From Methanosarcinaceae archaeon (GTDB lineage: Archaea > Halobacteriota > Methanosarcinia > Methanosarcinales > Methanosarcinaceae), in contig JAIPUR010000022.1 of NCBI GenBank assembly GCA_020055655.1, forward strand, positions 1-42,939: a DNA stretch of 42,939 nt. The letters run 5' to 3'. Below, one piece after another: positions 2,751-38,073 of this stretch (position 1 is the first letter of the stretch; each line of letters starts with the position of its first letter). Both the position numbers and the translations under genes were made by a program. Under the pieces are notes generated by a model. That model saw only the letters and a program-made list of their open reading frames with translations, was not told the DNA's origin and did not search any database.

Positions 2751-3287
2751 ATGACAAAAATCTTAGCTTTTGTAGGTATGCCTGCCTCAGGCAAATCCGA
2801 GGCATCTTCGGTCCTTAAGAATCATGGTATAACAGTCATCAACATGGGTGACGTGATCAGGGAAGAGGTAGTTCGCAGAGGGCTGGAAGCGACCGATGCA
2901 AATACAGGTGGCGTTGGCACTGACCTGCGTGAAAATGAAGGTATGGATGCAGTTGCAAGGCGCTGTATTCCTAAAATAATAAATGCTGTAGATGACTTTA
3001 TAGCAATCGATGGTGTGCGCAGTGTGTCTGAAGTAGATCTCTTCAAGCAGGAATTCGGAGATGATTTCACGCTAGTCTCGATCGATTCGCCTCTGGAAAT
3101 CCGATTTGAACGTGTTGTGGCGCGCAAGAGAAGCGATGATATGAAGGATATCAGTGGCTTGAAAGTAAGAGACGAAAGAGAACTCGGATGGGGTATGGGT
3201 GAGGCAATGATAATTGCTGATGTGGTGATAACCAATAACGATACTCTTGAAGATTTCAGGAAGAAGATCACAGCTCTTGTGGAGTAA
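2751..3287 (+). CDS. UPF0200 family P-loop kinase-like protein (dephospho-CoA kinase-like)
   Basis: A 178-residue nucleotide kinase-like protein. The P-loop GMPASGKS (9-16) is intact and is followed by the conserved INMGDVIREE and GVGTDLRENEGMDAVARR segments typical of the archaeal UPF0200 family, which resembles dephospho-CoA kinase and AAA_18 kinases. The substrate is not established. The next gene, UPF0201, starts two bases after its stop. These two families occur adjacent or fused in other archaea (an Archaeoglobus protein carries both names), so a shared task is likely. It is the first gene of a plus-strand trio. Possible TATA boxes lie at 2680-2691 and 2709-2720. Confidence 0.88.
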   Translation: MTKILAFVGMPASGKSEASSVLKNHGITVINMGDVIREEVVRRGLEATDANTGGVGTDLRENEGMDAVARRCIPKIINAVDDFIAIDGVRSVSEVDLFKQEFGDDFTLVSIDSPLEIRFERVVARKRSDDMKDISGLKVRDERELGWGMGEAMIIADVVITNNDTLEDFRKKITALVE

Positions 3288-3289
3288 TA

Positions 3290-3730
3290 ATGCTAAAAGT
3301 TACAGTTTCTGCAGATGTTAATCCCACGGAAAATGAGGATAAGGTACGTGATGCCGTCAGTAATATCTTTCCTAATATCGATTTGGAAATAGAGAAATTC
3401 GGTAAGGTGCAGAGACTTACAGGGGAAGGCAATATTTCAAGTCTTGAGACCCTGCATTATTTAATCAGGGAAGAGGAGATAATCGACACAAGTCGGACAC
3501 GATTGAATGTGGGAATGGATGAAGAAGGAAAATTCACATATTTTATCATCAGCAAGCAGGTCGCCACTGTTGGTCGTCTGAATTACCCTGCACAGGATGA
3601 ACCATTGGGTTCTATTAAGGTTTTCATTGATGCCGATTCAGCAGATGAGATGGAAAGGCTTCTTGACTGGCTGACCCCGCCTACTGAAGATGGTGTATCT
3701 GAATTTGAAATGGAAATGAGTGAAGTTTAA
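3290..3730 (+). CDS. UPF0201 family protein (RNA-binding/exosome-associated type)
   Basis: A 146-residue protein matching the archaeal UPF0201 family. It opens with a beta strand (LKVTVSADVNPTE) and has the family-typical LHYLIREEEIIDTSRTRL stretch near residues 55-72. The C-terminal third is acidic. No catalytic motif is evident. Family annotation links it to RNA binding or the exosome neighbourhood, but that role is not shown by this sequence. It starts two bases after the UPF0200 stop and is followed 12 bases later by a TIM-barrel gene, so the three are probably cotranscribed. Confidence 0.85.
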   Translation: MLKVTVSADVNPTENEDKVRDAVSNIFPNIDLEIEKFGKVQRLTGEGNISSLETLHYLIREEEIIDTSRTRLNVGMDEEGKFTYFIISKQVATVGRLNYPAQDEPLGSIKVFIDADSADEMERLLDWLTPPTEDGVSEFEMEMSEV

Positions 3731-3742
3731 GGGAGTATTTTT

Positions 3743-4516
3743 ATGAAGATAGGTAAACTGAGTTTTTCATCACGGTTGGTGCTTGAAGATCCGTTTGAGT
3801 GGGCATATAAGCTTGAAGATATTGGATATGCCGGCTGGGAGTTGGTGCAGGAAGGCTTGCATTGCCTCAATGATGGAAATATCTCAAAGGTGAAAGATGT
3901 CAGGGATACAACCAATCTAAAAATCAGTATACATCTTCCTTTTTCTGATATGAATCTTGCAGGATTGAATCCGGGAATACATGGAGAAGTGTTACGCCAG
4001 ATGAAATATTATTTGCACATGGCATCTGATATTGTGGATGTGGCAGTATTGCATCCGGGATACCTTTCACCCTATGGCTCAAAAGTGCCTGAAAAAGCAT
4101 GGGATACATGTATATGGTCCCTTCAGGAATTGTGTGATGTAGCCGAAGATTGCGGCATAACCGTTTGTGCTGAGAACATGCCTAATTTCCCCAAGATATT
4201 CGGACGGTATCCCGATGAGATGCTGGATATTCTTGAACAGGTGGAAAGGAAGAACATTGGCATGACACTGGATACAGGACATGCCAACACCGTGGGACTT
4301 CTGGATGAGTTCGTGAAAAAGTGTAAAGCTAATATATCCCACATGCATATTCACGACAATCATGCTAAAAGAGATGAGCATCTTCCTATTGGCCAGGGAA
4401 CAATTGACTGGAAAAAACTCATGGATGGCCTTTCCGGTTACAAAGGACTCATGGTTACTGAAATGGCCACTATAGAAGAAGGACAGCAGTGTATAGAGTA
4501 CTTGAAAAGTCTCTGA
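3743..4516 (+). CDS. Sugar phosphate isomerase/epimerase-like TIM-barrel protein (AP endonuclease 2 fold)
   Basis: A 257-residue xylose-isomerase-like TIM barrel. Likely divalent-metal ligands are present in the expected order: H64 (SIHLPF), H104 (VLHPG), E144 (CAENMP), D177 and H180 (LDTGHA), H200/H204 (HMHIHDN), H213, and E240 (VTEM). The family includes sugar epimerases, myo-inosose dehydratases and endonuclease IV. The substrate cannot be assigned. It is third in the trio with UPF0200 and UPF0201. A T-run (TTTTTTTTTTTT at 4525-4534 region) directly after the stop could end the transcript. Confidence 0.85.
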   Translation: MKIGKLSFSSRLVLEDPFEWAYKLEDIGYAGWELVQEGLHCLNDGNISKVKDVRDTTNLKISIHLPFSDMNLAGLNPGIHGEVLRQMKYYLHMASDIVDVAVLHPGYLSPYGSKVPEKAWDTCIWSLQELCDVAEDCGITVCAENMPNFPKIFGRYPDEMLDILEQVERKNIGMTLDTGHANTVGLLDEFVKKCKANISHMHIHDNHAKRDEHLPIGQGTIDWKKLMDGLSGYKGLMVTEMATIEEGQQCIEYLKSL

Positions 4517-4551
4517 CAGTCAATTTTTTTTTTTACAATAAGGCAGAACTA

Positions 4552-4722
4552 TTATTCCTCAAACCGACCATGTCTGCGGTCGATATTATCCATTTGATCA
4601 AGTAATTTACGCACAGCTGTCCTGATCGCGTCAGCTTGGGTCACAAATTTCTTATTGTCTCCCACATGCCTGTTAAGGTCATTTAGAAGTTCCTGGGGTA
4701 TATCAACACTCACTTTTGGCAC
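4552..4722 (-). CDS. Small ribbon-helix-helix DNA-binding protein
   Basis: A 56-residue protein that is easily missed because it starts with GTG. It begins VPKVSVDIPQELLNDLNRHV and continues through a helix-rich FVTQADAIRTAVRKLLDQM region. The beta strand VSVDIP, helix, helix pattern with the conserved ADAIRTAVR is typical of RHH_1/CopG-type proteins, in which the strand pairs in a dimer to contact DNA. The GTG at 4722 is chosen because AGGTGA lies four bases upstream. It sits between the TIM-barrel gene (convergent) and tRNA-Lys. No partner toxin gene is next to it, so a stand-alone regulator is more likely than an antitoxin. Its target is unknown. Confidence 0.75.
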   Translation of the reverse strand: MPKVSVDIPQELLNDLNRHVGDNKKFVTQADAIRTAVRKLLDQMDNIDRRHGRFEE

Positions 4723-4817
4723 AGTTTCACCTTTTAAGAGAATAATATACAGATTAATCTAATGAGATTTAATCTTTTAGAACTGCTTAAAACAATTGAG
4801 AAAAGAATTGTAAGATG

Positions 4818-4891
4818 CGAGCCGGAAGGGAGTTGAACCCTTGGCCTACGGATTAAGAGTCCGTCGCTCTGCCTGGCTAAGCTACCGGCCC
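4818..4891 (-). tRNA. tRNA-Lys (anticodon CTT)
   Basis: The minus strand folds into a full cloverleaf of 74 bases. The acceptor stem is GGGCCGG paired with CCGGCTC (one G-U), the anticodon stem is ACGGA/TCCGT with loop CTCTTAA and anticodon CTT, and the T arm contains GGGTTCAACTCCC. The discriminator base is G and the 3' CCA is not encoded, so it must be added after transcription. No intron is seen in the anticodon loop. A TATA box lies about 35 bases upstream. Confidence 0.96.
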
Positions 4892-4924
4892 GCGCTGATT
4901 GAGCGAGCCACCATACGTATTAGC

Positions 4925-4935
4925 TTAATATATAC
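4925..4935 (-). promoter_or_regulatory. TATA box of tRNA-Lys
   Basis: The minus strand reads CGAAACGTATATATTAAGC, a purine-rich BRE-like segment followed by a TATATATTA box. It lies about 34-44 bases before the tRNA 5' end, giving a predicted start a few bases upstream of the mature tRNA. Confidence 0.6.
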
Positions 4936-4963
4936 GTTTCGGTAAAAGGTACCTGGGATGCTC

Positions 4964-6796
4964 TCAGACATGCTTCACAACACATCTTGAAAGCCCGCTT
5001 ATCTCAACCATATCACTGTTATCAGGACTCTGTATTATCATCTGTCCTTTCTTCAGATATGGAATACGCTTCTCAAATTCTTTTTTAACCTTCAGGGTAC
5101 TGATAGCTGCATCGTTGCTTAGATTTAGGATGATCCGTGTATTTATCTGTTTGAACACGGTGTCATCTATGTCCTGCGGGTCCTGTGTGATCAAAAAGAG
5201 ACCAAGTCCTTCCTTTCTTCCCTGGCGGGCTGCATCTGCAAATTTGGAGATGAGGCGTCTTGAATGTTCTCCACCTGCCTTTGCAAGATAGCGGTGGGCT
5301 TCATCAAGTCCCAGGATGATCGGAGTTCCCTTCACGGCCTTTTCTCCGGGACTATCAGCTGATGTTTTCAGCTTGTTATCTACTATCATGCTCATTAAAG
5401 TGAGAGTTATCAGGTCGCGAATACGGGAGTTTGTGATGTATTCCGTAGGGAAGACGCTGACCTGTCCGGGTTTGAATATTTGTTCGAGAATTTCAGTAAT
5501 TGGTTTTGCCGCCTGGTCAAACACTCTTGCAAGGGCACGGTTCTTTACCCTGCGACCAATTCCATCATATGAAGATTCATGTATCTTGCCACTTTCTACG
5601 TAGTGTTCCCTTGTGAGGTCATCCCCCACAAAGTCCACGAAACCGCGGTATGTGTGCGCTGCATTCTTTTTGAAATAATCATCAAGCAGAAGGTCAACAC
5701 CAACATACTGTAATTCTGTCATGCCCACGGGAGCTATAAGCCATGAGTTCTGACGTACCATTTCAAAGGGAATTGTGAACTCCACCTGCTCTGCCCTTGA
5801 TCTTCCGGTGTAGGCTTCCCCGTCAACCTTTGCCACAAAGGTCCGGGTATTCTTCCAGGCTCCGTAATTTACCTTCTCTGCACCAAAATTGAGTTCATCA
5901 TTGGAGCTAATTCCAGGATTGTCCTCGAATATCTGGGAGTACTCATCCTGCGGATCCATTATCACAAGACATGGATTCTTTCGCTCTTCCGAACCACGTA
6001 ATTTGTACCTGTTATCTTCGTCTATGAACTGGCGTACAATGTTCTTGGTGAGGAAGGTCTTTCCGGTACCTGTACTTCCACATACCAGCATGTGCCTGAA
6101 TATCAGAGGGTCGCCCATTGAGTAGTCGTTTCTAAGGTAGTATGGAACAGTGGGAGGTTGTGCATGTGTTCTTACAAGTTCTCCACCAACACTGAGATGT
6201 CCTAAGAATATACCCTCTTCCGGAATATTCAGGCCGGTCTGAATCTTTATTTTCTCAGTAACAGGGAGTATTGGTGTATTGGGACGGGGTATCCTGTCTC
6301 CCATTCTTCTTGCAAGCACAGTGCCCTTTGAGGTTTCCTGTTCGTAGAGTATGCAGATGGGGTCCAGATATGCAAGGAACTTGTAATCCACCTCATCGGT
6401 GGTGTTGGAGTGCAACATCCTGCGGGAATGTATCTCTGTAGCATCATCCACTGCATATTCCTGCAGGTATTGTAATTTCCATATTCGTGCAAAAAGATCC
6501 TCATCTCCGTATGGTACGATGACATAGGTTCCAAGTCTCACTTTCTGGCGATTCGGAGTTGTGATGTATCCTGTTATCCTTGCTCCAGATTCAGTTATTT
6601 CAAGAGGGTCTATGCCTGTGGTAATGATCCCGAAAGCTTCGGAGGTAGCAACATCTGTGGATGCCTTAATGTTCTCCGGCTCAAAATCCTCAAAACGATC
6701 CACATAGTCAATTTCCAACATGCTCTCTGAATGGAGCTCAGCATCCCTTTTCTCATTACCTCCGTTTGCAAAGGAAAGTATATCTTCATCTCTCAT
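4964..6796 (-). CDS. herA: HerA-type DNA translocase/helicase
   Basis: A 610-residue FtsK/HerA-superfamily ATPase. An N-terminal beta-barrel HAS-like region covers roughly residues 50-180, followed by Walker A GSTGTGKT (about 240-247), Walker B ILGLDEAH with D498/E499, and the arginine/sensor segment RQGRKEGLGLFLITQDPQD. HerA forms a hexameric ring that works with NurA nuclease in DNA end resection alongside Mre11-Rad50 (family knowledge). Its start overlaps the end of nurA, so the two are translationally coupled. Three possible starts exist (GTG 6805, ATG 6799, ATG 6796). The last is chosen because GGTGA sits five bases before it. Length and motifs are normal. Confidence 0.92.
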   Translation of the reverse strand: MRDEDILSFANGGNEKRDAELHSESMLEIDYVDRFEDFEPENIKASTDVATSEAFGIITTGIDPLEITESGARITGYITTPNRQKVRLGTYVIVPYGDEDLFARIWKLQYLQEYAVDDATEIHSRRMLHSNTTDEVDYKFLAYLDPICILYEQETSKGTVLARRMGDRIPRPNTPILPVTEKIKIQTGLNIPEEGIFLGHLSVGGELVRTHAQPPTVPYYLRNDYSMGDPLIFRHMLVCGSTGTGKTFLTKNIVRQFIDEDNRYKLRGSEERKNPCLVIMDPQDEYSQIFEDNPGISSNDELNFGAEKVNYGAWKNTRTFVAKVDGEAYTGRSRAEQVEFTIPFEMVRQNSWLIAPVGMTELQYVGVDLLLDDYFKKNAAHTYRGFVDFVGDDLTREHYVESGKIHESSYDGIGRRVKNRALARVFDQAAKPITEILEQIFKPGQVSVFPTEYITNSRIRDLITLTLMSMIVDNKLKTSADSPGEKAVKGTPIILGLDEAHRYLAKAGGEHSRRLISKFADAARQGRKEGLGLFLITQDPQDIDDTVFKQINTRIILNLSNDAAISTLKVKKEFEKRIPYLKKGQMIIQSPDNSDMVEISGLSRCVVKHV

Positions 6797-8066
6797 CATT
6801 TTCACCCCATCTTATATCGTTATAAGATGTATCTACTCTTGAATTCCTGAATTTACTGATAATCTGCTTTCTTTCTGAGAGCTGTATCTTTGCCACAGAA
6901 TCTGCTTTTGAAAGTGTTTTAGGTATGCCATTTAAGGCTATGTCGTAGAGTACCTTTCTTGTGATCTGCCATCTCATTTCATCATTCTTCACAAGACCAT
7001 AAGGTGCTTCCACTTTGAAGATGCTGTCCATTTTCGGGACAAATATCATGAAAAATGTCAGCGAATAATCCTCAGCTGGAAATTCATGCTTAACCCAGTC
7101 TCCAAGAAGAGGGTGCGTTGCATTTAGTGCTTTTTCATAGAACTGGTTTGGTTGCATGAACCAGTTAGTATATGTGATATACTTCCTGGAATCGTTTCTC
7201 TTAAGTCCGGCTTTTTCAAGGGATAGTGCATTTTTGAAGAACTGCGCATCCAGCATCCAGTGTAGATCGATAGCAATATCCTGTTTTTTCAGGGTCTGCA
7301 TTAGCTGCATATCCTCAGGATTTTTCACAAATCCCACCAATGCTTTTTGTTTCTTGATATGATGGTCCATTATGTCAATGTAATTCTGCAATATCTTTTT
7401 GCAGTGTGGTTCATTACGAACCTGTATTTCATCTGACTCCACAACCATCCAGTACATCAGACGCTTTGGATAAATGGGACCATCCATTATGAAAAAGCTG
7501 TCATCTTCCATTTGTTCAAGCAATTGAAGGATATGTTCTGATTCGCAGAGATAGAGTGCAATATCATGCAACATATCATTCACTTTCTTTTTGAGTAAGC
7601 CTGCCTGAATATTTATTATCTTCTTGCGTGACATACCCTCATCAAAAGATTCCCATTTGTCTCCCACACTGACCGATTTTTCTTTGCTGTCTATATAGGT
7701 GGCTGCCACTATTGTTCTAATGCTATGGAGATCAAGGTCAGTTGGAGTGGATGCCATGGCGCAATGGCAGAAATCCACGAAAAGTCCGTTGTCAAAGGTC
7801 TTTGCAGTGGTACTTCCGCTGTCGCATGAATAACTTATGTTGAAAAGATCATTACTTTGTATCATCTTTTCGATACTTACTTTTGCCCTTTTTACCGGTC
7901 CTATGGATCTGATAACTGTTTTTCCATTGTACTTTAGTTCCTTGAGCATATCCAGTATGTTCGAAACGTTATCCATATCATCGCCTGGATCATCTACTTT
8001 AAGGCAATTATCGATACGCTCGACCATATCGTGTATCTCTTTGATGTGAACCGGTTCAAGGGTCAT
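6786..8066 (-). CDS. nurA: NurA-type nuclease partner of HerA
   Basis: A 426-residue protein placed directly upstream of and overlapping herA, the conserved archaeal arrangement. NurA-domain residues are suggested by the SCDSGSTT motif (Asp near 82), corresponding to the first metal-binding aspartate of the family, then the VDFCHCAMAS strand. Divergence is high, so the call leans on context as well as motif. The ATG at 8066 is chosen because the further upstream ATG at 8156 would add a 30-residue asparagine-rich tail of non-coding character. A TATA-like AAAATAATAATAC at about 8090-8102 would place transcription start at this ATG, giving a leaderless mRNA. NurA supplies 5'-3' end-processing nuclease activity to the HerA ring. 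Confidence 0.85.
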   Translation of the reverse strand: MTLEPVHIKEIHDMVERIDNCLKVDDPGDDMDNVSNILDMLKELKYNGKTVIRSIGPVKRAKVSIEKMIQSNDLFNISYSCDSGSTTAKTFDNGLFVDFCHCAMASTPTDLDLHSIRTIVAATYIDSKEKSVSVGDKWESFDEGMSRKKIINIQAGLLKKKVNDMLHDIALYLCESEHILQLLEQMEDDSFFIMDGPIYPKRLMYWMVVESDEIQVRNEPHCKKILQNYIDIMDHHIKKQKALVGFVKNPEDMQLMQTLKKQDIAIDLHWMLDAQFFKNALSLEKAGLKRNDSRKYITYTNWFMQPNQFYEKALNATHPLLGDWVKHEFPAEDYSLTFFMIFVPKMDSIFKVEAPYGLVKNDEMRWQITRKVLYDIALNGIPKTLSKADSVAKIQLSERKQIISKFRNSRVDTSYNDIRWGENDER

Positions 8067-8237
8067 GGGGTATAATAGTATTTGGGTGGTATTATTATTT
8101 TGGATACTTGAATTCCTGTTATGGAATTTCCATGGTGATGTATGGCTGATCTGCATTATATCGGCAAATCAATTTTATTTTATTCAGGATTTTTGCCGAA
8201 AAATCCAGGGTAACATTAAGAGCCCCTTTGTTCACTC

Positions 8238-8259
8238 AGCAAAATCAATTTGATTTGCT
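8238..8259. promoter_or_regulatory. Near-palindrome in the nurA/symporter divergent spacer
   Basis: The gene-free stretch 8067-8384 separates divergent nurA and the symporter gene. It contains AGCAAAATCAATTTGATTTGCT, an inverted repeat with one unpaired base, which could bind a dimeric regulator. Downstream at 8318-8330 is TTATATATAA, a good TATA box for the symporter gene 55 bases further on. Nothing else is recognised here. Confidence 0.35.
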
Positions 8260-8317
8260 TTATACTAAACTTTATTTTCTGAAAATCCTTATATATTAAT
8301 TAAATATAAAACTAGCT

Positions 8318-8330
8318 TAGTTATATATAA
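8318..8330 (+). promoter_or_regulatory. TATA box of the sodium:solute symporter gene
   Basis: AGTTATATATAAG matches the archaeal TATA consensus. It is about 55 bases before the ATG at 8385, predicting a leader near 35 bases that contains AGAGGT as ribosome-binding site. Confidence 0.5.
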
Positions 8331-8384
8331 GCTTCGAATTTTTCGTATTCAGAAGCCACATTATTATGAAAAGAGGTTATCATT

Positions 8385-10316
8385 ATGCAAAATTATGGAT
8401 TATTCCTTATACTGATGGCGATTTATTTGTTATGTCTCATTGGTATCGGGGTTTACTTTACTAAACGTCAAAAATCAGTAACTGATTTCTGGCTTGCTGG
8501 GCGTAAGGTCAGCTCGCTTGGTATTGGAATGTCAGCAGCATCTTCGTGGATGACGGCAGGTGGGATCCTTGCTGTAATTGGATTTTATATGATACTTGGA
8601 ATGGGCTCCATCTGGGGATTCGTTGCACCAAACATTCTATCCTTGCTGCTGATCGCTTTGCTTGTAGGCAAGATCAAACATCTGCCTGCTATAACCCAGC
8701 CTGAACTTCTCGAACAGAGATACAGCAGTGCGTTACGTGGTCCTGTTGCTCTGATCATTGCTATTGTAATGGTACTTTTTGCTGTAGCTGATATCATTGG
8801 TTTTTCACTTGTACTTCAGATATTCTTCGGTATGCCACCAATATATGCAGTGATCATAGTCGCCCTTGCTATCTCACTTTACGTGACATTAGGTGGTTTT
8901 TCAGCGGTTATATGGACTGATATGATACAGTTCGTTCTGCTTGCAACTTTCTCACTTGTAATGGCAGTACTGGTTTTAAATGCTGCAACAGCAGGTTCAG
9001 CTGATGTAGCTTCAATCAGTGTTTCAGATCTTTTCGGTAATGTTTCATCATCCTGGTGGAATCCCTTCATCATAGGACTTCCAATGGTGATGATATTTGT
9101 TTTCGCTATCATTCCTGGATGGGTTACGGAACAGGATCCATGGCAGAGGATCTGGGCTGCAAGAGATGAAAAATCTGCACGTAATGGAATGATCCTTGCT
9201 TCTTTCCTTATATTCCTTGTATTCGGTGTGGCATGTAGCGTTATTGCCATTGGTCTGAATTATCTATATCCTGCTATTCCAGAGCTTTATAATCAGATCG
9301 GCATGGGAGCAATGGCAGAGGCAGAACCGGCTTTGCTTATATTCATTGAGCAGATGCTCTCTCCACTTGCACTGGCTCTGGCTGGTGTGGGCCTTGCTGC
9401 AGCTGCAATGTCCTCTGCAGATACATTTGCAACATCCGGTGGCTCATGTCTTTCTCGTGACATCTACCAGAGGTACATAAAACCAGATGCAACCATGAAG
9501 CAAATGATGGCTGTCAACAGGCTCAGTGTTCTTATTATAGTTGCAGCAGCTGCGATTTCTTCCTTTTACATAAAGGGAATTATCGAAGCTATTCACATTG
9601 CAACCTTTATTGCCAGTGCTTCCTACTTCTTCCCGCTAATGGGAGGACTTTTTTGGAAGCGTGCAACAAAAGAAGGAGCATTTGCAGGACTTGTTGTCGG
9701 TGCATTAGCGCAGATCAGCTTTACAATTATTGATATAATCAAGACTCCTCCCTTTGCACCTACATATCTTTCAGGTATTCACCCTGCACTTGATCATCAT
9801 GGTGTAATTCTGGGAATGATTCTTAGCGGACTTGCTTTCTTTTTAGTCTCCATTATGACAAAACCATCAGATACTGCAAATCTCGCACCGTTCTTTGCAG
9901 ATGAAGCAGAGAAACTAGAGAAGGAAGATATCAAGGTGGAGGAATCTGACAAGGACTTCCAGAAGATGCTTAAGGCAGTTGAAAAGGAAAGAACGGGTGA
10001 TCGTGCTGTTATCAAATTGAATCTGGAAGCATCTGCTACAATTAACTGGAACAGATTTGTCGGTGAGATAAAATCAATACACCCATCATGGATAACTCCA
10101 AGTGGAATTGATTCGGTTTACTGGCTCACAAAAGCGGATATGCTTGCCTGTGTATCACTTACCCGTGGTCACAATGAAAAGGAGATCTGGTTTAGCTGTG
10201 AGCCAAAGTCAGATGATCTGGATGATAGTGTAAAGGAATTATTTGTTGCTTTCAAACAGGTAGCGGAGGCACTTGAGAATATTGGTGTTCTGTTGTCTTT
10301 GCATGTTGCGGAATGA
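8385..10316 (+). CDS. Sodium:solute symporter (SSS/PutP family) with C-terminal soluble extension
   Basis: A 643-residue integral membrane transporter. Around 13 hydrophobic segments span residues 5-492, and SSS hallmarks are visible: DFWLAGRK (34-41), ASSWMTAGG (52-60), the GGFSAVIWTDMIQF stretch (170-183), and AAAMSSADTFATSGG (339-353), which contributes Na+-site serines. The substrate (amino acid, betaine, or carboxylate) cannot be read from sequence. Residues about 495-643 form a hydrophilic tail with a charged linker (EKLEKEDIKVEES) and a compact C-terminal domain (545-643) that I do not recognise. Ordinary SSS proteins of about 500 residues lack it. A strong terminator follows, so the gene is monocistronic. 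Confidence 0.88.
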   Translation: MQNYGLFLILMAIYLLCLIGIGVYFTKRQKSVTDFWLAGRKVSSLGIGMSAASSWMTAGGILAVIGFYMILGMGSIWGFVAPNILSLLLIALLVGKIKHLPAITQPELLEQRYSSALRGPVALIIAIVMVLFAVADIIGFSLVLQIFFGMPPIYAVIIVALAISLYVTLGGFSAVIWTDMIQFVLLATFSLVMAVLVLNAATAGSADVASISVSDLFGNVSSSWWNPFIIGLPMVMIFVFAIIPGWVTEQDPWQRIWAARDEKSARNGMILASFLIFLVFGVACSVIAIGLNYLYPAIPELYNQIGMGAMAEAEPALLIFIEQMLSPLALALAGVGLAAAAMSSADTFATSGGSCLSRDIYQRYIKPDATMKQMMAVNRLSVLIIVAAAAISSFYIKGIIEAIHIATFIASASYFFPLMGGLFWKRATKEGAFAGLVVGALAQISFTIIDIIKTPPFAPTYLSGIHPALDHHGVILGMILSGLAFFLVSIMTKPSDTANLAPFFADEAEKLEKEDIKVEESDKDFQKMLKAVEKERTGDRAVIKLNLEASATINWNRFVGEIKSIHPSWITPSGIDSVYWLTKADMLACVSLTRGHNEKEIWFSCEPKSDDLDDSVKELFVAFKQVAEALENIGVLLSLHVAE

Positions 10317-32468: not shown

Positions 32469-33524
32469 ATGACTGAAGATATGCGCTCAATTCTCAAGTG
32501 TGTCCGATGTGGAACATGCCGCTCTGTGTGTCCTGTTTTTGACGTACTTGGCTGGGAGTCAACGGGTGCACGTGGAAGAATGATGGTTGCACATGGTGTT
32601 TCTCAAGGGCTTGAAGTTGATAAGGATGTACTTGACAGCCTGAACACTTGTACCACTTGTGGTATGTGCAAAGAGATGTGCCCGTCTGGTGCTGCTCCTA
32701 CTAAAGTTGTGGAAAATACTAGGCATCAGCTTGTCTTACAGGGTAAGATGACCGATGCTCAGAAAGAGCTGCGTGGAAATGCAATTGAAACGGGTAATCC
32801 CCTTGGAGAGTCTGCCGAACGTATGGCATGGCTTGGCGATTCTCGCAAGGATGTAAAAGATAAGGCTGATTATGTTTATTTCTCGGGTTGCCTTGGTTCT
32901 TACAGATATCCTGATCTTGCAAAGAGGACCTTTGATATACTGAAGAAATTTGGTGTGACCGTCCTCAAAGATGAGGTATGCTGTGGTTCTCCACTTCTGA
33001 GAACTGGCTCTGACCCGTCTGAACTGATGGAAAAGAATCTTGATCAGATAAAGGAAATCGGTGCACACACCATAATCACAGGATGTGCAGGTTGTTTTTC
33101 AACTTTGAAGAATGATTATCCTGAAAAACTGAATGTGATGCATGTATCCCAGTTCCTTGCAGAACGTCTCGATGAGATGGATTTGAAGAAACTTGATCTT
33201 AAGGTGGCCTATCATGACCCATGTCACCTTGGAAGATGCAACGGTGTATTTGATGAACCTCGTCAGCTCATTACTGCAGTGTGTGAACTCGATGAAATGG
33301 AAAACATTCGCGAGAAATCCAAGTGCTGTGGGGCTGGTGGCGGAGTGCTCAAAGGTTATCCGGAACTTGCTCTTGAACTCTCAAAGAAACGGGCAGAAGA
33401 TATTCCTGAAGGTGTGGATTATCTTGTCACAGTATGCCCGCTTTGCAGAACAAATCTCCAGCGTGGTAGCGGTGATATAAAAGTGATAGATGTCCTTGAT
33501 CTATTGGAAATGGCTATGGTATAG
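32469..33524 (+). CDS. GlcF/HdrD-type iron-sulfur subunit with CCG domains
   Basis: A 351-residue protein with two [4Fe-4S] motifs (C11, C14, C17, C21 and C61, C64, C67, C71) and two CCG (DUF3483-type) cysteine domains, one near 144-185 (SGCLGS to VCCGSPLLRTG) and one near 245-295 (HDPCHLG to KCCGAGGG). This layout is shared by GlcF and HdrD. It starts two bases after the GlcD-like stop, so the two form one dehydrogenase complex. The electron acceptor is probably a membrane carrier or a disulfide, not resolved. The stop codon is inside a terminator hairpin. Confidence 0.9.
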   Translation: MTEDMRSILKCVRCGTCRSVCPVFDVLGWESTGARGRMMVAHGVSQGLEVDKDVLDSLNTCTTCGMCKEMCPSGAAPTKVVENTRHQLVLQGKMTDAQKELRGNAIETGNPLGESAERMAWLGDSRKDVKDKADYVYFSGCLGSYRYPDLAKRTFDILKKFGVTVLKDEVCCGSPLLRTGSDPSELMEKNLDQIKEIGAHTIITGCAGCFSTLKNDYPEKLNVMHVSQFLAERLDEMDLKKLDLKVAYHDPCHLGRCNGVFDEPRQLITAVCELDEMENIREKSKCCGAGGGVLKGYPELALELSKKRAEDIPEGVDYLVTVCPLCRTNLQRGSGDIKVIDVLDLLEMAMV

Positions 33525-33545
33525 CCATTTTAATTCTTTTTTGAT
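33508..33545 (+). terminator. Terminator hairpin overlapping the glcF-like stop codon
   Basis: AAATGGCTAT/ATAGCCATTT forms a perfect 10-bp stem around the loop GGT, followed by TAATTCTTTTTT. The stem spans the last codons and the TAG stop (33522-33524). A further T-rich run follows at about 33561-33580. Confidence 0.7.
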
Positions 33546-33623
33546 GCTATTTTATTATTGATTTTTTTTTGTTTTTTTCATTATTTTAAACTGCACCTGC
33601 ATAAAAAGTTGTGATTTATTTGG

Positions 33624-33825
33624 TCACATATATATATCATTAAAAAAATAATCCTATGTGCTTAAAGGAACCGTAAGGTTTAGCCAATCAGTGGGAGAGA
33701 GAAGGGACCATATCGGGATAACTGGGGTTTGAAGTTGTATTTTTGACAGCTTGTTTAGCGTTAGCTATGTACAGATTCCTGAATCTCGTTTTTACATGAT
33801 CTTTTCTCTATTTTAAAATGGGGGA
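33624..33825 (+). promoter_or_regulatory. Promoter and long structured leader of the large orphan gene
   Basis: TCACATATATATATC (about 33622-33636) is a TATA-like box predicting transcription from about 33655. The RNA would then open with a hairpin: outer GCT/AGC (33660-33662 with 33682-33684) and inner AACC/GGTT closing a GTAA tetraloop of the GNRA type (33669-33680). It continues through a purine-rich GTGGGAGAGAGAAGGGACC segment. There is no gene in 33525-33817. The leader is about 165 bases before translation, long for this window. Confidence 0.35.
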
Positions 33826-33918
33826 ATTAGTATAACCGAAAAAAAGAGAACAAAAAGGAAATCTAAAGGTGCTACAATAAAAGCGAAAGTAGGAGGGATC
33901 AAAAATTCAACACTACCT

Positions 33919-36129
33919 TTGAAGGCTGTGATCTATACCGAAGAAAAGGATGAGATGCGGATACTTTCCGAGACAAAACTCCAGGATGACGAATTTGAAA
34001 TGGAGCTCGGAACAGATGCTGATGACCTGCCTGGGAATACAAAAATGGCTATAGTGCCTGAGGAAGTTGAATCAACAAGTCATATCCGTAGAATTGCAGA
34101 ATCAGATGCATCCCCTTCAGTAAATATTGACAAAACAAGGCTTTTATCTAGGGAAGGTACCCTGTCAGCCGAAGATATGTCCATAAAGCCTGTGGATGGT
34201 ATTGTAAATCTTTGGAAGCTAAAACACAAGGTTTGTGGAAGAGTATTCAAACGGGACCCTGTGACTGGTGAGAAATGTCCTGTACCAGGTGCTATTGTAA
34301 GAGTGTTTGACGTTGATGTGAACCTGTTCTGGTGGCATCCTTATCCCGGACCATGGGGATGGTTGTATCCTCACAAGCCACACCGTAGGGAAGAGATATC
34401 TAAAGTCGCCACGGACAAATGTGGCTATTTCTGCCTGGAGATTCCGTATTTCGACATCGATGCAGTATTGCGCTGGAGACTACGTTTCCGTTGTATGTGG
34501 GAAATGCTGAAACCTCCGACAATACTGGATGCCCTGGATCTGGGTGTTAAACCGGATATCAGGCATTATCCCGAGCTTGAAAAACTCCCTGAAATGGAAA
34601 TTAAGCCAAGACCGGGACCCAGGCCAGACCCTGTATCAATCCCTGATCCAACGTTAATGCTTCATGATCTGGAATTCACAAGAGCAATGGAATGGAAGCT
34701 TCCCTCCGGGGATATGACGTCAATGGGTCTCAGGAATACCAGAACTTACATTGAAATGGGAGAAATGCTCAAGATGCCGAAATTTGATGAAGTAAATCAG
34801 GATATCTTTGAGAGAAAGGCTCTCTTTGACCCAATGGAAAATACTGAAATGTCCATCATGGAACAACCAGCTTTCCCGAACTCGATTGCTGCACCACAGC
34901 TTCCGGATGACGAGGTGTTCATGGAGATGGTTGGTGGCGATGACAAGGAATCGCTTGAAGCAATCGGGGATATCCGTATGGTAAAACCACTTGCAAGGCT
35001 CCTGCTCTGCTGGACAGAGGTCGTCCCGGAGTGGAAACTTTTCCTGGATGTGCCGGATATAGTTTTCAAGGTGGAACAGGACATTGATGACGATGGCAGC
35101 CTTGAAACCATTTATGACGGAAGTTTCTTTGATGTGAACTGGAATTTGAGCGAACCAACGACCAATGTTCAGATAGAAGCCTGGAAAAATGCTATTTGCG
35201 TCCCATGCGGACCCGGATACAAGCCATGTACCAAAGCAGGGTTCGTTGGTATCAATGACATCCCTCTTGATCATCTGTATCAGGATGCTGTGGGCTATGC
35301 TACACGCCCCAACCGACCACGTCAACCTATTCCACATCCACCGCATGTGATCAGACCATCGGCAGAGTCTCCTTTCTGCAAGACGCTGCGTATTGTCGGA
35401 TGCCCGGATTATGGCCATGCTGTCTACTACAAAGTATTCTACAAATATGAAGGTGGACCTGAAACCCATTTCACAGAATCGTGGCATGTGTATAATATCA
35501 GCGCAGGAGCATCTCATCATGTGGAACCTGATGCAAGCGGATTCTATCCGGTGCTAACGCCACCTGATAATTATTTCCCGTATCATACCCTGATGAACTG
35601 GCGCAGCCACAAGTATCCAGATGGTAAATATGAACTTAGGCTTGCTCTGTATGATGCTGCGTTCAATCCAATAGGTGCACCGCTGCCATCTGTGAAAGTG
35701 GTCATTGACAATAGTAAGCCGGCACCTGTGGATTTCCTTAAGCTGGAATACAGGGAAGGTGCAGGAGCCTGGAAGGAAGCAGCTCTGCATTGCCCGATAA
35801 TAAAGCGTAATGCAGGCGCTCATGTAGAACTCAGGGTAAAATATAATGTAGCAGCAACGCATCTGAGGGATATCCATATCAACTTCAGAGGTTGTGACGG
35901 GTACATCGGAAGCGGAGGCTACTGGCATCAGAATGTTGCAGACAATAATAAGGTTCTGAGCTGGACAACAACCCTGCCGGGAACGAAGCATGAAGGTGGG
36001 TATCACTTCTATCTTGAAGGACGCAGCCGTGCTTTCAATGCTACAGGGGGACTGGCTAGCAACTGGTACTTTGACCCGCTGAATATCTGGAGAGGAAAAG
36101 TGCTTAATGTGGTAATTCTGGATAAATGA
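33919..36129 (+). CDS. Large uncharacterised beta-rich protein
   Basis: At least 736 residues counted from the TTG at 33919; the true start is unclear. The frame stays open back to 33817 and encodes a basic stretch (TEKKRTKRKSKGA...KVGG) before any standard start. No signal peptide or membrane segment is visible. Residues about 104-176 resemble a carboxypeptidase-regulatory/transthyretin-like sandwich (VCGRVFKRDPVTG, PVPGAIVRVFDVD, then ATDKCGYFCLEIP). An aromatic loop WWHPYPGPWGW lies inside it. Residues 388-393 read DIDDDG, a calcium-loop-like motif. The last third (about 490-736) looks like two further beta-sandwich domains. I recognise no function. It is isolated, with its own promoter and long leader, and convergent with ygiQ. 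Confidence 0.75.
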   Translation: MKAVIYTEEKDEMRILSETKLQDDEFEMELGTDADDLPGNTKMAIVPEEVESTSHIRRIAESDASPSVNIDKTRLLSREGTLSAEDMSIKPVDGIVNLWKLKHKVCGRVFKRDPVTGEKCPVPGAIVRVFDVDVNLFWWHPYPGPWGWLYPHKPHRREEISKVATDKCGYFCLEIPYFDIDAVLRWRLRFRCMWEMLKPPTILDALDLGVKPDIRHYPELEKLPEMEIKPRPGPRPDPVSIPDPTLMLHDLEFTRAMEWKLPSGDMTSMGLRNTRTYIEMGEMLKMPKFDEVNQDIFERKALFDPMENTEMSIMEQPAFPNSIAAPQLPDDEVFMEMVGGDDKESLEAIGDIRMVKPLARLLLCWTEVVPEWKLFLDVPDIVFKVEQDIDDDGSLETIYDGSFFDVNWNLSEPTTNVQIEAWKNAICVPCGPGYKPCTKAGFVGINDIPLDHLYQDAVGYATRPNRPRQPIPHPPHVIRPSAESPFCKTLRIVGCPDYGHAVYYKVFYKYEGGPETHFTESWHVYNISAGASHHVEPDASGFYPVLTPPDNYFPYHTLMNWRSHKYPDGKYELRLALYDAAFNPIGAPLPSVKVVIDNSKPAPVDFLKLEYREGAGAWKEAALHCPIIKRNAGAHVELRVKYNVAATHLRDIHINFRGCDGYIGSGGYWHQNVADNNKVLSWTTTLPGTKHEGGYHFYLEGRSRAFNATGGLASNWYFDPLNIWRGKVLNVVILDK

Positions 36130-36213
36130 TCTCCATAAAGCTCATTTCTCTTTTTATTTTTATTGATGCTTCAGCGAAAAAATAGATAAAACAAATGATA
36201 GCTATAACCTGAA

Positions 36214-38073
36214 CTACCACCATCCATTCTTTCCACGCTTTTTTCTTGATACCAGAGAATTCCAGCTATTTCCAGCAAGGTCCATCCTGCCTGCCTGCTT
36301 TAAGCCTTCCATCACAAGAGCATGATTCTTTGTGTCCTTGTAGTGAAGCAGAGCTCTCTGTATGTTCTTATCTTTTGTACTTGTGGCAACGTATATTTTC
36401 TTACTTGAAAATGGGTCGATGCCTGTATGGAACATGCAGGTGGAAGCGGTCATAGGTGTAGGTGTGAAATCCTGTACCTGCTTTGTGTATTTGCCCGTGT
36501 CTCTGATGTACTCCGCGTTCTCTATCATGTCATCAAGGGTGCAGCCGGGGTGTCCTGACATAAGGAAGGCAACTAGATATTGGTCTTTGCCAAGCTTTTT
36601 GTTGATTTCTTTGAATTTCTCCTCGAACTTCTCGAAAGTTTCCCGATCAGGTTTCTTCATGGCTTTGGTAACATTATCGCAATAATGTTCAGGTGCAACC
36701 TTGAGTTGTCCACTGACGTGGTGTGCACAGAGCTCTTCCATGTAATTCTCATCCAGAAGTGCAAGGTCGTAACGTACCCCGTATCCTACAAATACCTTTG
36801 ATATGCCGGGCATTTCCCTGAGTCTCTTCATAAGTTCAGTGAGTTTGTCATGGCTGGTATTAAGTGAAGGACATGGCCTGGGGTAGATGCAATTCTTGCC
36901 TTTGCAGGCTCCTCGCTTTTCCCAGTTCTTGCAATCCATGCCATACATATTAGCGGAAGGGCCACCAAGTCCGTTAATAATACCTTTGAACCCTTTCATA
37001 TTCCTGAAGCGTTTTGCCTCTCTTAGAATTGATCCGATGCTGCGGCTTCTTATCATTCTTCCCTGATGCAGTACTATGGCACAGAACGAGCATGATCCAA
37101 AGCAGCCTCTATGGGTGTTTATGGAGAACCTTACCATGTCCAGTGCAGGAACTTTTTCCTTGTATGATGGATGGGTCCTTCTGGTAAATGGAAGTTCATA
37201 GACGTGGTCCAGCTCCTCCTGACTCAGGGGTCTCATTGGCTTGTTCTGTACAATAACTGTCTTTGGATGAACCTGAATGATACCTTTTCCACGCACTGGG
37301 TCCTGTTCATAGTAAGTGTCCCTGAAAGCTCTCGCGTAAAGTATCCTGTCCTTTGAGACTTCAATATAGGGTGATATCTCAATGTAATCTTCACTTTTGA
37401 GGATCTCTTCTTTGTTTTGTTTCCACTTTTTAACCTCCATTTTCCAGGAAGTTCCATCAATATCATTTATGTCTGAAACGGCTGCTCCTTTTTTCAGCCT
37501 GTCTGCAATTTCCAGTATCTGCAGTTCTCCCATTCCGTATACTAGTAGATTCGCAGGTGCGTCAGCTAGAATTGACTGGCGTACTTTGTCTGACCAATAG
37601 TCGTATTGTGCAAAACGGCGCAATGATGCTTCTATTCCGCCTATTACTATGGGTGAATCAGGGTAAGCTTCCTTTATCCTGTTGGAATAAACAACGGCTG
37701 CACGGTTTGGCCGCATTCCTTCTTTGTTGCCTGGTGAATATGCGTCTTCATGCCTCAATCTTTTTGATGGTGTGTAGTTGCTTACCATTGAGTCAGTGTT
37801 TCCTGCACTCACAGCAAAAAAGAGACGCGGTTTTCCGAGCTTTGTGAAATCATCGGCGCTTTCCCATTTTGGCTGTGCAATGACTCCTACTTTGTATCCG
37901 GCATCTTCCAGTACTCTGGCTATAATGCTTGTACCAAATCCGGGGTGATCAACGTATGCATCGCCTGTGACAACTATCACGTCGAGTTCATCCCAACCTT
38001 TTTCTTTGACCTCATCGAGGCTCATGGGGAGGAATTCGGATTTGTTTCGATGATTGCTCTTTTTCTTTATCAT
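36214..38073 (-). CDS. YgiQ family radical SAM protein
   Basis: A 619-residue radical SAM enzyme of the YgiQ/UPF0313 family. An N-terminal B12-binding-like region (about 30-200) is followed by the [4Fe-4S]-SAM motif GCFGSCSFC (C324, C328, C331), then a glycine-rich GIINGLGGPSANMYGMDC segment and a second cysteine-rich stretch (C381-type KNWEKRGACKGKNCIYPRPC, about 378-397). The family is widespread with unproven function. Length is normal. It begins five bases after the metallo-hydrolase stop, forming a two-gene unit. Confidence 0.9.
   Translation of the reverse strand: MIKKKSNHRNKSEFLPMSLDEVKEKGWDELDVIVVTGDAYVDHPGFGTSIIARVLEDAGYKVGVIAQPKWESADDFTKLGKPRLFFAVSAGNTDSMVSNYTPSKRLRHEDAYSPGNKEGMRPNRAAVVYSNRIKEAYPDSPIVIGGIEASLRRFAQYDYWSDKVRQSILADAPANLLVYGMGELQILEIADRLKKGAAVSDINDIDGTSWKMEVKKWKQNKEEILKSEDYIEISPYIEVSKDRILYARAFRDTYYEQDPVRGKGIIQVHPKTVIVQNKPMRPLSQEELDHVYELPFTRRTHPSYKEKVPALDMVRFSINTHRGCFGSCSFCAIVLHQGRMIRSRSIGSILREAKRFRNMKGFKGIINGLGGPSANMYGMDCKNWEKRGACKGKNCIYPRPCPSLNTSHDKLTELMKRLREMPGISKVFVGYGVRYDLALLDENYMEELCAHHVSGQLKVAPEHYCDNVTKAMKKPDRETFEKFEEKFKEINKKLGKDQYLVAFLMSGHPGCTLDDMIENAEYIRDTGKYTKQVQDFTPTPMTASTCMFHTGIDPFSSKKIYVATSTKDKNIQRALLHYKDTKNHALVMEGLKQAGRMDLAGNSWNSLVSRKKRGKNGWW

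Follow-up and report, generated by a model that had tools for sequence, protein, structure and literature searches.

An unnamed family of multi-domain beta-sandwich proteins from Methanosarcinaceae with an apparently split transthyretin-like domain

Introduction

Two kinds of described protein come closest to the one considered here. The first comprises the transthyretin-like and CarboxypepD_reg domains (PF01060, PF13620), which include the N-terminal beta domain of the cyanobacterial lipoxygenase 5EK8. The beta-strand domain of the Cyanothece 9R-lipoxygenase is not required for membrane binding (review, PMC10889196), and thus no lipid function can be transferred from a likeness to 5EK8. The second is RbmA (4KKQ), a secreted, two-domain scaffold protein of Vibrio cholerae biofilms with an Ig/FnIII-like sandwich fold.

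The gene described here lies in a 42,939-nucleotide stretch of DNA from a Methanosarcinaceae archaeon (contig JAIPUR010000022.1, hereafter the window), and all features are on its forward strand. We favor, with a probability of about 0.5, a model where the product belongs to an unnamed family of beta-sandwich proteins with several domains and acts by binding or scaffolding rather than as an enzyme. This is the simplest reading because every recognizable module is a beta-sandwich of a binding type.

Results

The gene and its start codon. An open frame of 736 codons runs from a TTG at position 33919 to position 36129, in agreement with a preliminary description of the window that reported more than 700 residues from this position. 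However, this start yields too short a protein. The same frame is open upstream as far as 33820, and in an 11-sequence alignment the homologues' N-termini (M-x-R/K-rich) start at the codon that aligns with 33832. Because the orthologues all start upstream of 33919 and align to 33832, the protein is best read as approximately 765 amino acids long (33832..36129), with the called TTG 29 codons too late and positions 33919-36129 covering codon 30 onward. Codons 1-29 are conserved, with 52% identity to the copy in the metagenome-assembled genome (MAG) HMMV2 (dN 0.26, dS 0.74).

The codon at 33832..33834 reads ATA in the window, whereas both HMMV2 and locus L012 have ATG there, as judged from an alignment of upstream DNA, and no in-frame ATG, GTG or TTG precedes 33919 within the frame open from 33820. 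The ATA might serve as a non-standard start codon, reflect a recent change or result from a sequencing error. If the window copy were recently decaying through a change from ATG to ATA, its expression would be lost or its product truncated, and the nearest standard start (TTG 33919) would indeed truncate domain 1 in its first strand. However, the frame is intact over 765 codons with conserved positions kept, the sequence GGGGGA is found 6 bases upstream of the ATA, and a base-calling error is also possible. We consider decay very unlikely.

The upstream region. The gene is preceded (33627..33831) by a TATA-like stretch at approximately 33627-33638 and then by a leader of about 180 nucleotides; the promoter and transcription start are putative. 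This upstream region of its own, together with our failure to find an operon partner, agrees with the earlier proposal of an independently transcribed gene. The leader had also been called long and structured. Its length was confirmed, whereas its predicted folding energy (z -1.28, with 18 of 200 shuffles equally stable) is within the shuffled range, and an Rfam scan returned no family match even at E 5. The proximal part of the leader is conserved with the HMMV2 copy, though the genes beyond differ. Given these differing neighbors and the shared proximal leader, the gene probably moves together with its leader.

Orthologues and distribution. Full-length orthologues are present in 9 of the 27 genomes of the genus (Methanolobus by kinship), including the genome of the window, with the other eight sharing 60-70% identity. 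The gene is also found at full length in HMMV2, a Methanosarcinaceae MAG of another genus (77% identity), and in one MAG recorded as Deltaproteobacteria bacterium (48% identity). Records carrying orthologues include Methanolobus profundi, M. psychrotolerans, and the Methanosarcinaceae MAGs Zod_Metabat.1106 and HMMV2. Comparison of the whole gene with that of HMMV2 gives a dN of 0.134 and a dS of 1.024 (dN/dS of about 0.13), which indicates strong purifying selection. The gene is therefore real, conserved among orthologues and maintained by selection.

The genes surrounding the bacterial orthologue are clearly bacterial (hemA-, ccsA- and rpsT-like by reading), so its contig is not a stray archaeal one. 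In a midpoint-rooted tree with long branches, the bacterial copy is placed between the Methanosarcinaceae copies and L113, a partial archaeal orthologue (90/94 support). This position, combined with the bacterial contig, makes a transfer of the gene between archaea and bacteria likely. The family is present in HMMV2 and other Methanosarcinales and occurs at full length in one deltaproteobacterial MAG. One could imagine that methane-cycling archaea use it as an adhesion or matrix protein without an export signal, that it has passed between them and deltaproteobacteria, and that it brings the two into contact. We regard this idea as a long shot.

No match covering the protein was obtained in Pfam (E 1), NCBIfam, PHROGs or PDB sequences, and thus a full-length correspondence to a characterized family was not found in these libraries. 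A Pfam match to phage gp53 (E 0.05) was dropped as below the cut-off. Searches of plasmids and phages with tblastn yielded no relative, only matches to transthyretin-type domains, and the viral contigs searched likewise held no relative. The literature searched contains no paper describing the protein. The family is unnamed, being absent from the libraries and papers searched. It is not an orphan, because full-length orthologues exist and the C-terminal module is widespread. Profile searches also recover distant relatives, both archaeal and from the deltaproteobacterial phylum.

Domain organization. The modules are arranged in the order of a small beta domain, a transthyretin-like domain split by an insert of approximately 190 residues, a sandwich domain, and an Ig-like domain. 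The evidence supports the split transthyretin-like and the Ig-like assignments but does not prove them. Models of the whole protein (mean pLDDT 47.5) and of the C-terminal half alone (46.6, no improvement) are of low confidence, and were built from alignments that leave out the distant relatives found by genome search. Our statements on folds consequently rest mainly on sequence profiles.

Domain 1 (residues 14-100, 33871..34131) is a small beta domain with predicted strands and a model pLDDT of about 70-79. It is the least conserved domain outside the insert (66% identity to HMMV2), and its position suggests kinship with the N-terminal domain found in distant relatives.

The first half of domain 2 (residues 130-205, 34219..34446) carries the pattern CGRV...CPVPGA.V.V.DVD...TDKCGYFC, and the second half (residues 395-458, 35014..35205) carries PDIVFKVEQ...ETIYD...VNWN. 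In a distant relative of 686 amino acids (G762_686), hmmsearch places family-profile residues 177-204 and 404-461 side by side, at 249-274 and 284-341, so that the second half directly follows the first. These near-contiguous halves in distant relatives, together with the alignment, support a model where both halves form one transthyretin/CarboxypepD_reg-like domain. Relatives included in the corresponding alignment (A7) match PF13620 (E 2.7e-8 and 2.6e-7), PF01060 and TTR-52, and the two halves share a strand pattern with accepted transthyretin-like and CarboxypepD_reg members. The A7 profile matches residues 64-136 of the beta domain of 5EK8 (E 2.3e-4) and, weakly, Caenorhabditis elegans TTR-52. 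VIA-align superimposes model residues 130-452 on residues 51-162 of 5EK8 (Z 8.8, rmsd 3.3, 19% identity), in a region where the model pLDDT is low. The window sequence by itself gives no Pfam match at E 1 with the insert present, and none at E 0.1 with the halves joined. The regulatory-like sandwich, aromatic loop and calcium-loop motif listed separately in the preliminary description are all present, but on this evidence they belong to one split domain rather than to independent units.

Two very large archaeal ORFs (L068:517-11700 and L072) resemble components of Tc-type complexes by reading and are located in genomes that hold distant relatives; the L068 ORF has a transthyretin-like module near its N-terminus. 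Elsewhere, two different relatives of the family (686 and 870 amino acids) adjoin in a single archaeal genome (L066:7379-12440).

The insert (residues 206-394, 34447..35013) is rich in proline, partly helical, and modeled with low confidence (pLDDT of about 29-50). It is the least conserved part of the protein, with 64% identity to HMMV2 compared with 83-88% on either side. An enzyme of unrecognized type might have its catalytic site in this insert or between domains, as the protein is highly conserved, including at W, H, D and C residues, and transthyretin-like domains are often fused to enzymes (the 5EK8 lipoxygenase, and a carotenoid oxygenase among our matches, H4). However, poor conservation of the insert is not what such a site would lead one to expect, and no enzyme family matches the protein at E 1. 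We judge a catalytic function quite improbable, and the earlier statement that no catalytic motif is evident holds in that no catalytic family was matched.

The C-terminal 265 residues constitute a two-domain module. Domain 4 (residues 500-628, 35329..35715) is a putative sandwich-like domain, modeled with low confidence, and is common to secreted relatives, with profile matches in G755, G299 and G762 (alignment A8). Domain 5 (residues 629-765, 35716..36126) is the best modeled C-terminal part and is an Ig-like beta-sandwich that VIA-align superimposes on RbmA (Z 10.4, rmsd 2.4 over 101 residues). Foldseek with the model of the C-terminal half gave only weak sandwich matches (UNC119, RhoGDI and Wzt; E 0.002 or worse), and the C-terminal profile has no sequence match in the PDB. 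The profile of domains 4-5 finds proteins outside its building set (G546 at 4e-36 and G391 at 2e-30), compared with an E of 0.59 for the best shuffled control. The module is present in 38 of 238 genomes of the class, or about one in six, and in 6 of 395 genomes sampled from the deltaproteobacterial phylum. Several of the matching proteins begin with a signal-peptide-like sequence and differ in their N-terminal parts, G391 for instance having a beta-helix there.

Loops, cysteines and cellular location. Two loops of domain 2 stand out. The extended aromatic loop WWHPYPGPWGW (34330..34362) has W167, W168, P170, P172, P174 and W177 invariant in 11 orthologues, and is shortened or absent in distant relatives. 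In a hairpin of the second half, the turn DIDDDGSLE (35080..35106) has D417, I418, D419, D421 and G422 invariant, and DIDxDGxxE is found in all 11 orthologues, including the bacterial one. L113 keeps this loop as DVDGDGDEE, and outer relatives lack a DxDxDG loop. The DxDxDGxxE turn is thus specific to the family as aligned and is probably calcium-binding. All 13 cysteines are invariant in the archaeal copies, including the three of CVPCG..Y.PC (35197..35229).

If the binder or scaffold model is correct, the turn would bind Ca2+, the cysteines might stabilize the fold as disulfides or metal sites, and the fixed aromatic loop might form a binding or specificity surface with the variable insert. 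The protein would then act at or outside the cell envelope, since secreted proteins of relatives end in this C-terminal module. However, the signal peptide expected for such a location is missing. As previously stated, the protein has neither a signal peptide nor a membrane segment (highest 19-residue Kyte-Doolittle mean 1.04), and among the six orthologues checked the N-terminus is basic and no hydrophobic stretch occurs. Weighing these points, we give an envelope location little more than even odds.

The same observations can be accommodated by a protein of strict anaerobes that binds or scaffolds in the cytosol, with the invariant cysteines (for example those of CVPCG..Y.PC) binding metal rather than forming disulfides. 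The missing signal peptide, the basic N-terminus and the invariance of all 13 cysteines fit this proposal, as does the host, because the methanogen lineage is anaerobic. However, the module of domains 4-5 ends secreted proteins in relatives, and DxDxDG loops are found more often outside the cell. A cytosolic role therefore strikes us as doubtful, though it deserves serious attention.

Genomic context. The gene is solitary and occupies non-homologous sites in different genomes. Apart from vertical synteny, the archaeal loci compared share no conserved partner gene, which is in keeping with the preliminary description of a large, beta-rich, stand-alone protein. In other members of the genus, the junction between a glycolate-oxidase-like gene pair and a radical-SAM gene lacks this gene. 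A different ORF of about 290 amino acids takes its place in G042, G043 and G058, and only 71 bases are found there in G057. G043 and G058 carry their own copy of the family elsewhere. The ORF of about 290 amino acids at the gene's site appears exported in the three loci (L088, L089 and L091) whose junction matches window positions 33524-36214.

Some bacterial loci have more suggestive neighbors. In two genomes of the deltaproteobacterial phylum, papain-like C1 proteases without a signal peptide, 73% identical to one another, are encoded near family members at L016:7107-10319, where the protease gene lies 81 bp downstream, and at L086:7811-14150. In L086, a PF06841 (T4 gp19-like tube) protein (E 6.6e-41) is encoded directly upstream of a distant relative. 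These associations would suit an accessory or cargo protein of a phage-tail-like or proteolytic system. However, the genome of the window has no such papain-like protease, no sheath gene (PF04984) and no gp19 gene (PF06841), and thus the bacterial linkage cannot be carried over to the archaeal protein. Moreover, only one of the nine gene-bearing genomes of the genus has both sheath and gp19 genes, three gene-less genomes have a sheath gene, and the archaeal loci are without such partners. We consider an accessory or cargo role quite unlikely, and the narrower candidacy as cargo of a contractile injection system is not supported by the distribution of sheath and tube genes in the genus or by the window's own genome.

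In the L086 cluster (3209-10210), the distant relative has as neighbors two 'AARLNEIGFPEFTAKLI'-type proteins without a match, a lone T4 gp19-like tube protein and a peptidoglycan-binding M15 peptidase, and no sheath gene was seen in the 19 kb read. Two genomes of the genus, G046 and G047 (L094-L097, L073 and L074), have both sheath and gp19-like genes in a probable contractile tail-like locus.

Comparison with known systems

The preliminary description suggested a structural or binding protein of a novel kind. Structure or binding remains the preferred function, as only beta-sandwich modules and no catalytic family were recognized, whereas the claim of a novel kind goes too far, because the module types are known and the family is widespread. 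The protein belongs to an undescribed family assembled from known modules (transthyretin/CarboxypepD_reg-like and Ig-like), with a patchy distribution among methane-cycling archaea and in a few bacteria. Its domain order, invariant residues and distribution now define a family without an entry in the libraries searched. Two concrete points are open to testing: that a long, variable insert interrupts the transthyretin-like domain, and that archaea and a bacterium have a nearly identical architecture. The protein does not amount to a new kind of system, and for the present its importance is modest.

The closest counterparts are distant archaeal relatives of 897 (G278), 686 (G762), 711 (G799) and 646 (G299) amino acids, which have a transthyretin-like domain and the module of domains 4-5 in the same order and, like the window protein, are encoded by solitary genes with no signal peptide seen. 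They differ from it in sharing only 18-35% identity and in lacking the DxDxDG loop. Some have no long insert between the halves, and others carry an additional N-terminal transthyretin or HHH domain.

RbmA is the best structural match to domain 5, but it covers that one domain only and has no sequence relation to the window protein; sandwich folds of this kind are common, and the match says nothing about function. Likeness to the transthyretin-like and CarboxypepD_reg domains extends to the shared pattern G.V...PVPGA.V...D...TD..G.F...PDI.FKV and, in a low-confidence model, to the predicted fold. The domain in the window protein differs from these by its insert of approximately 190 residues, an extra aromatic loop, a DxDxDG turn, and four cysteines in its first half.
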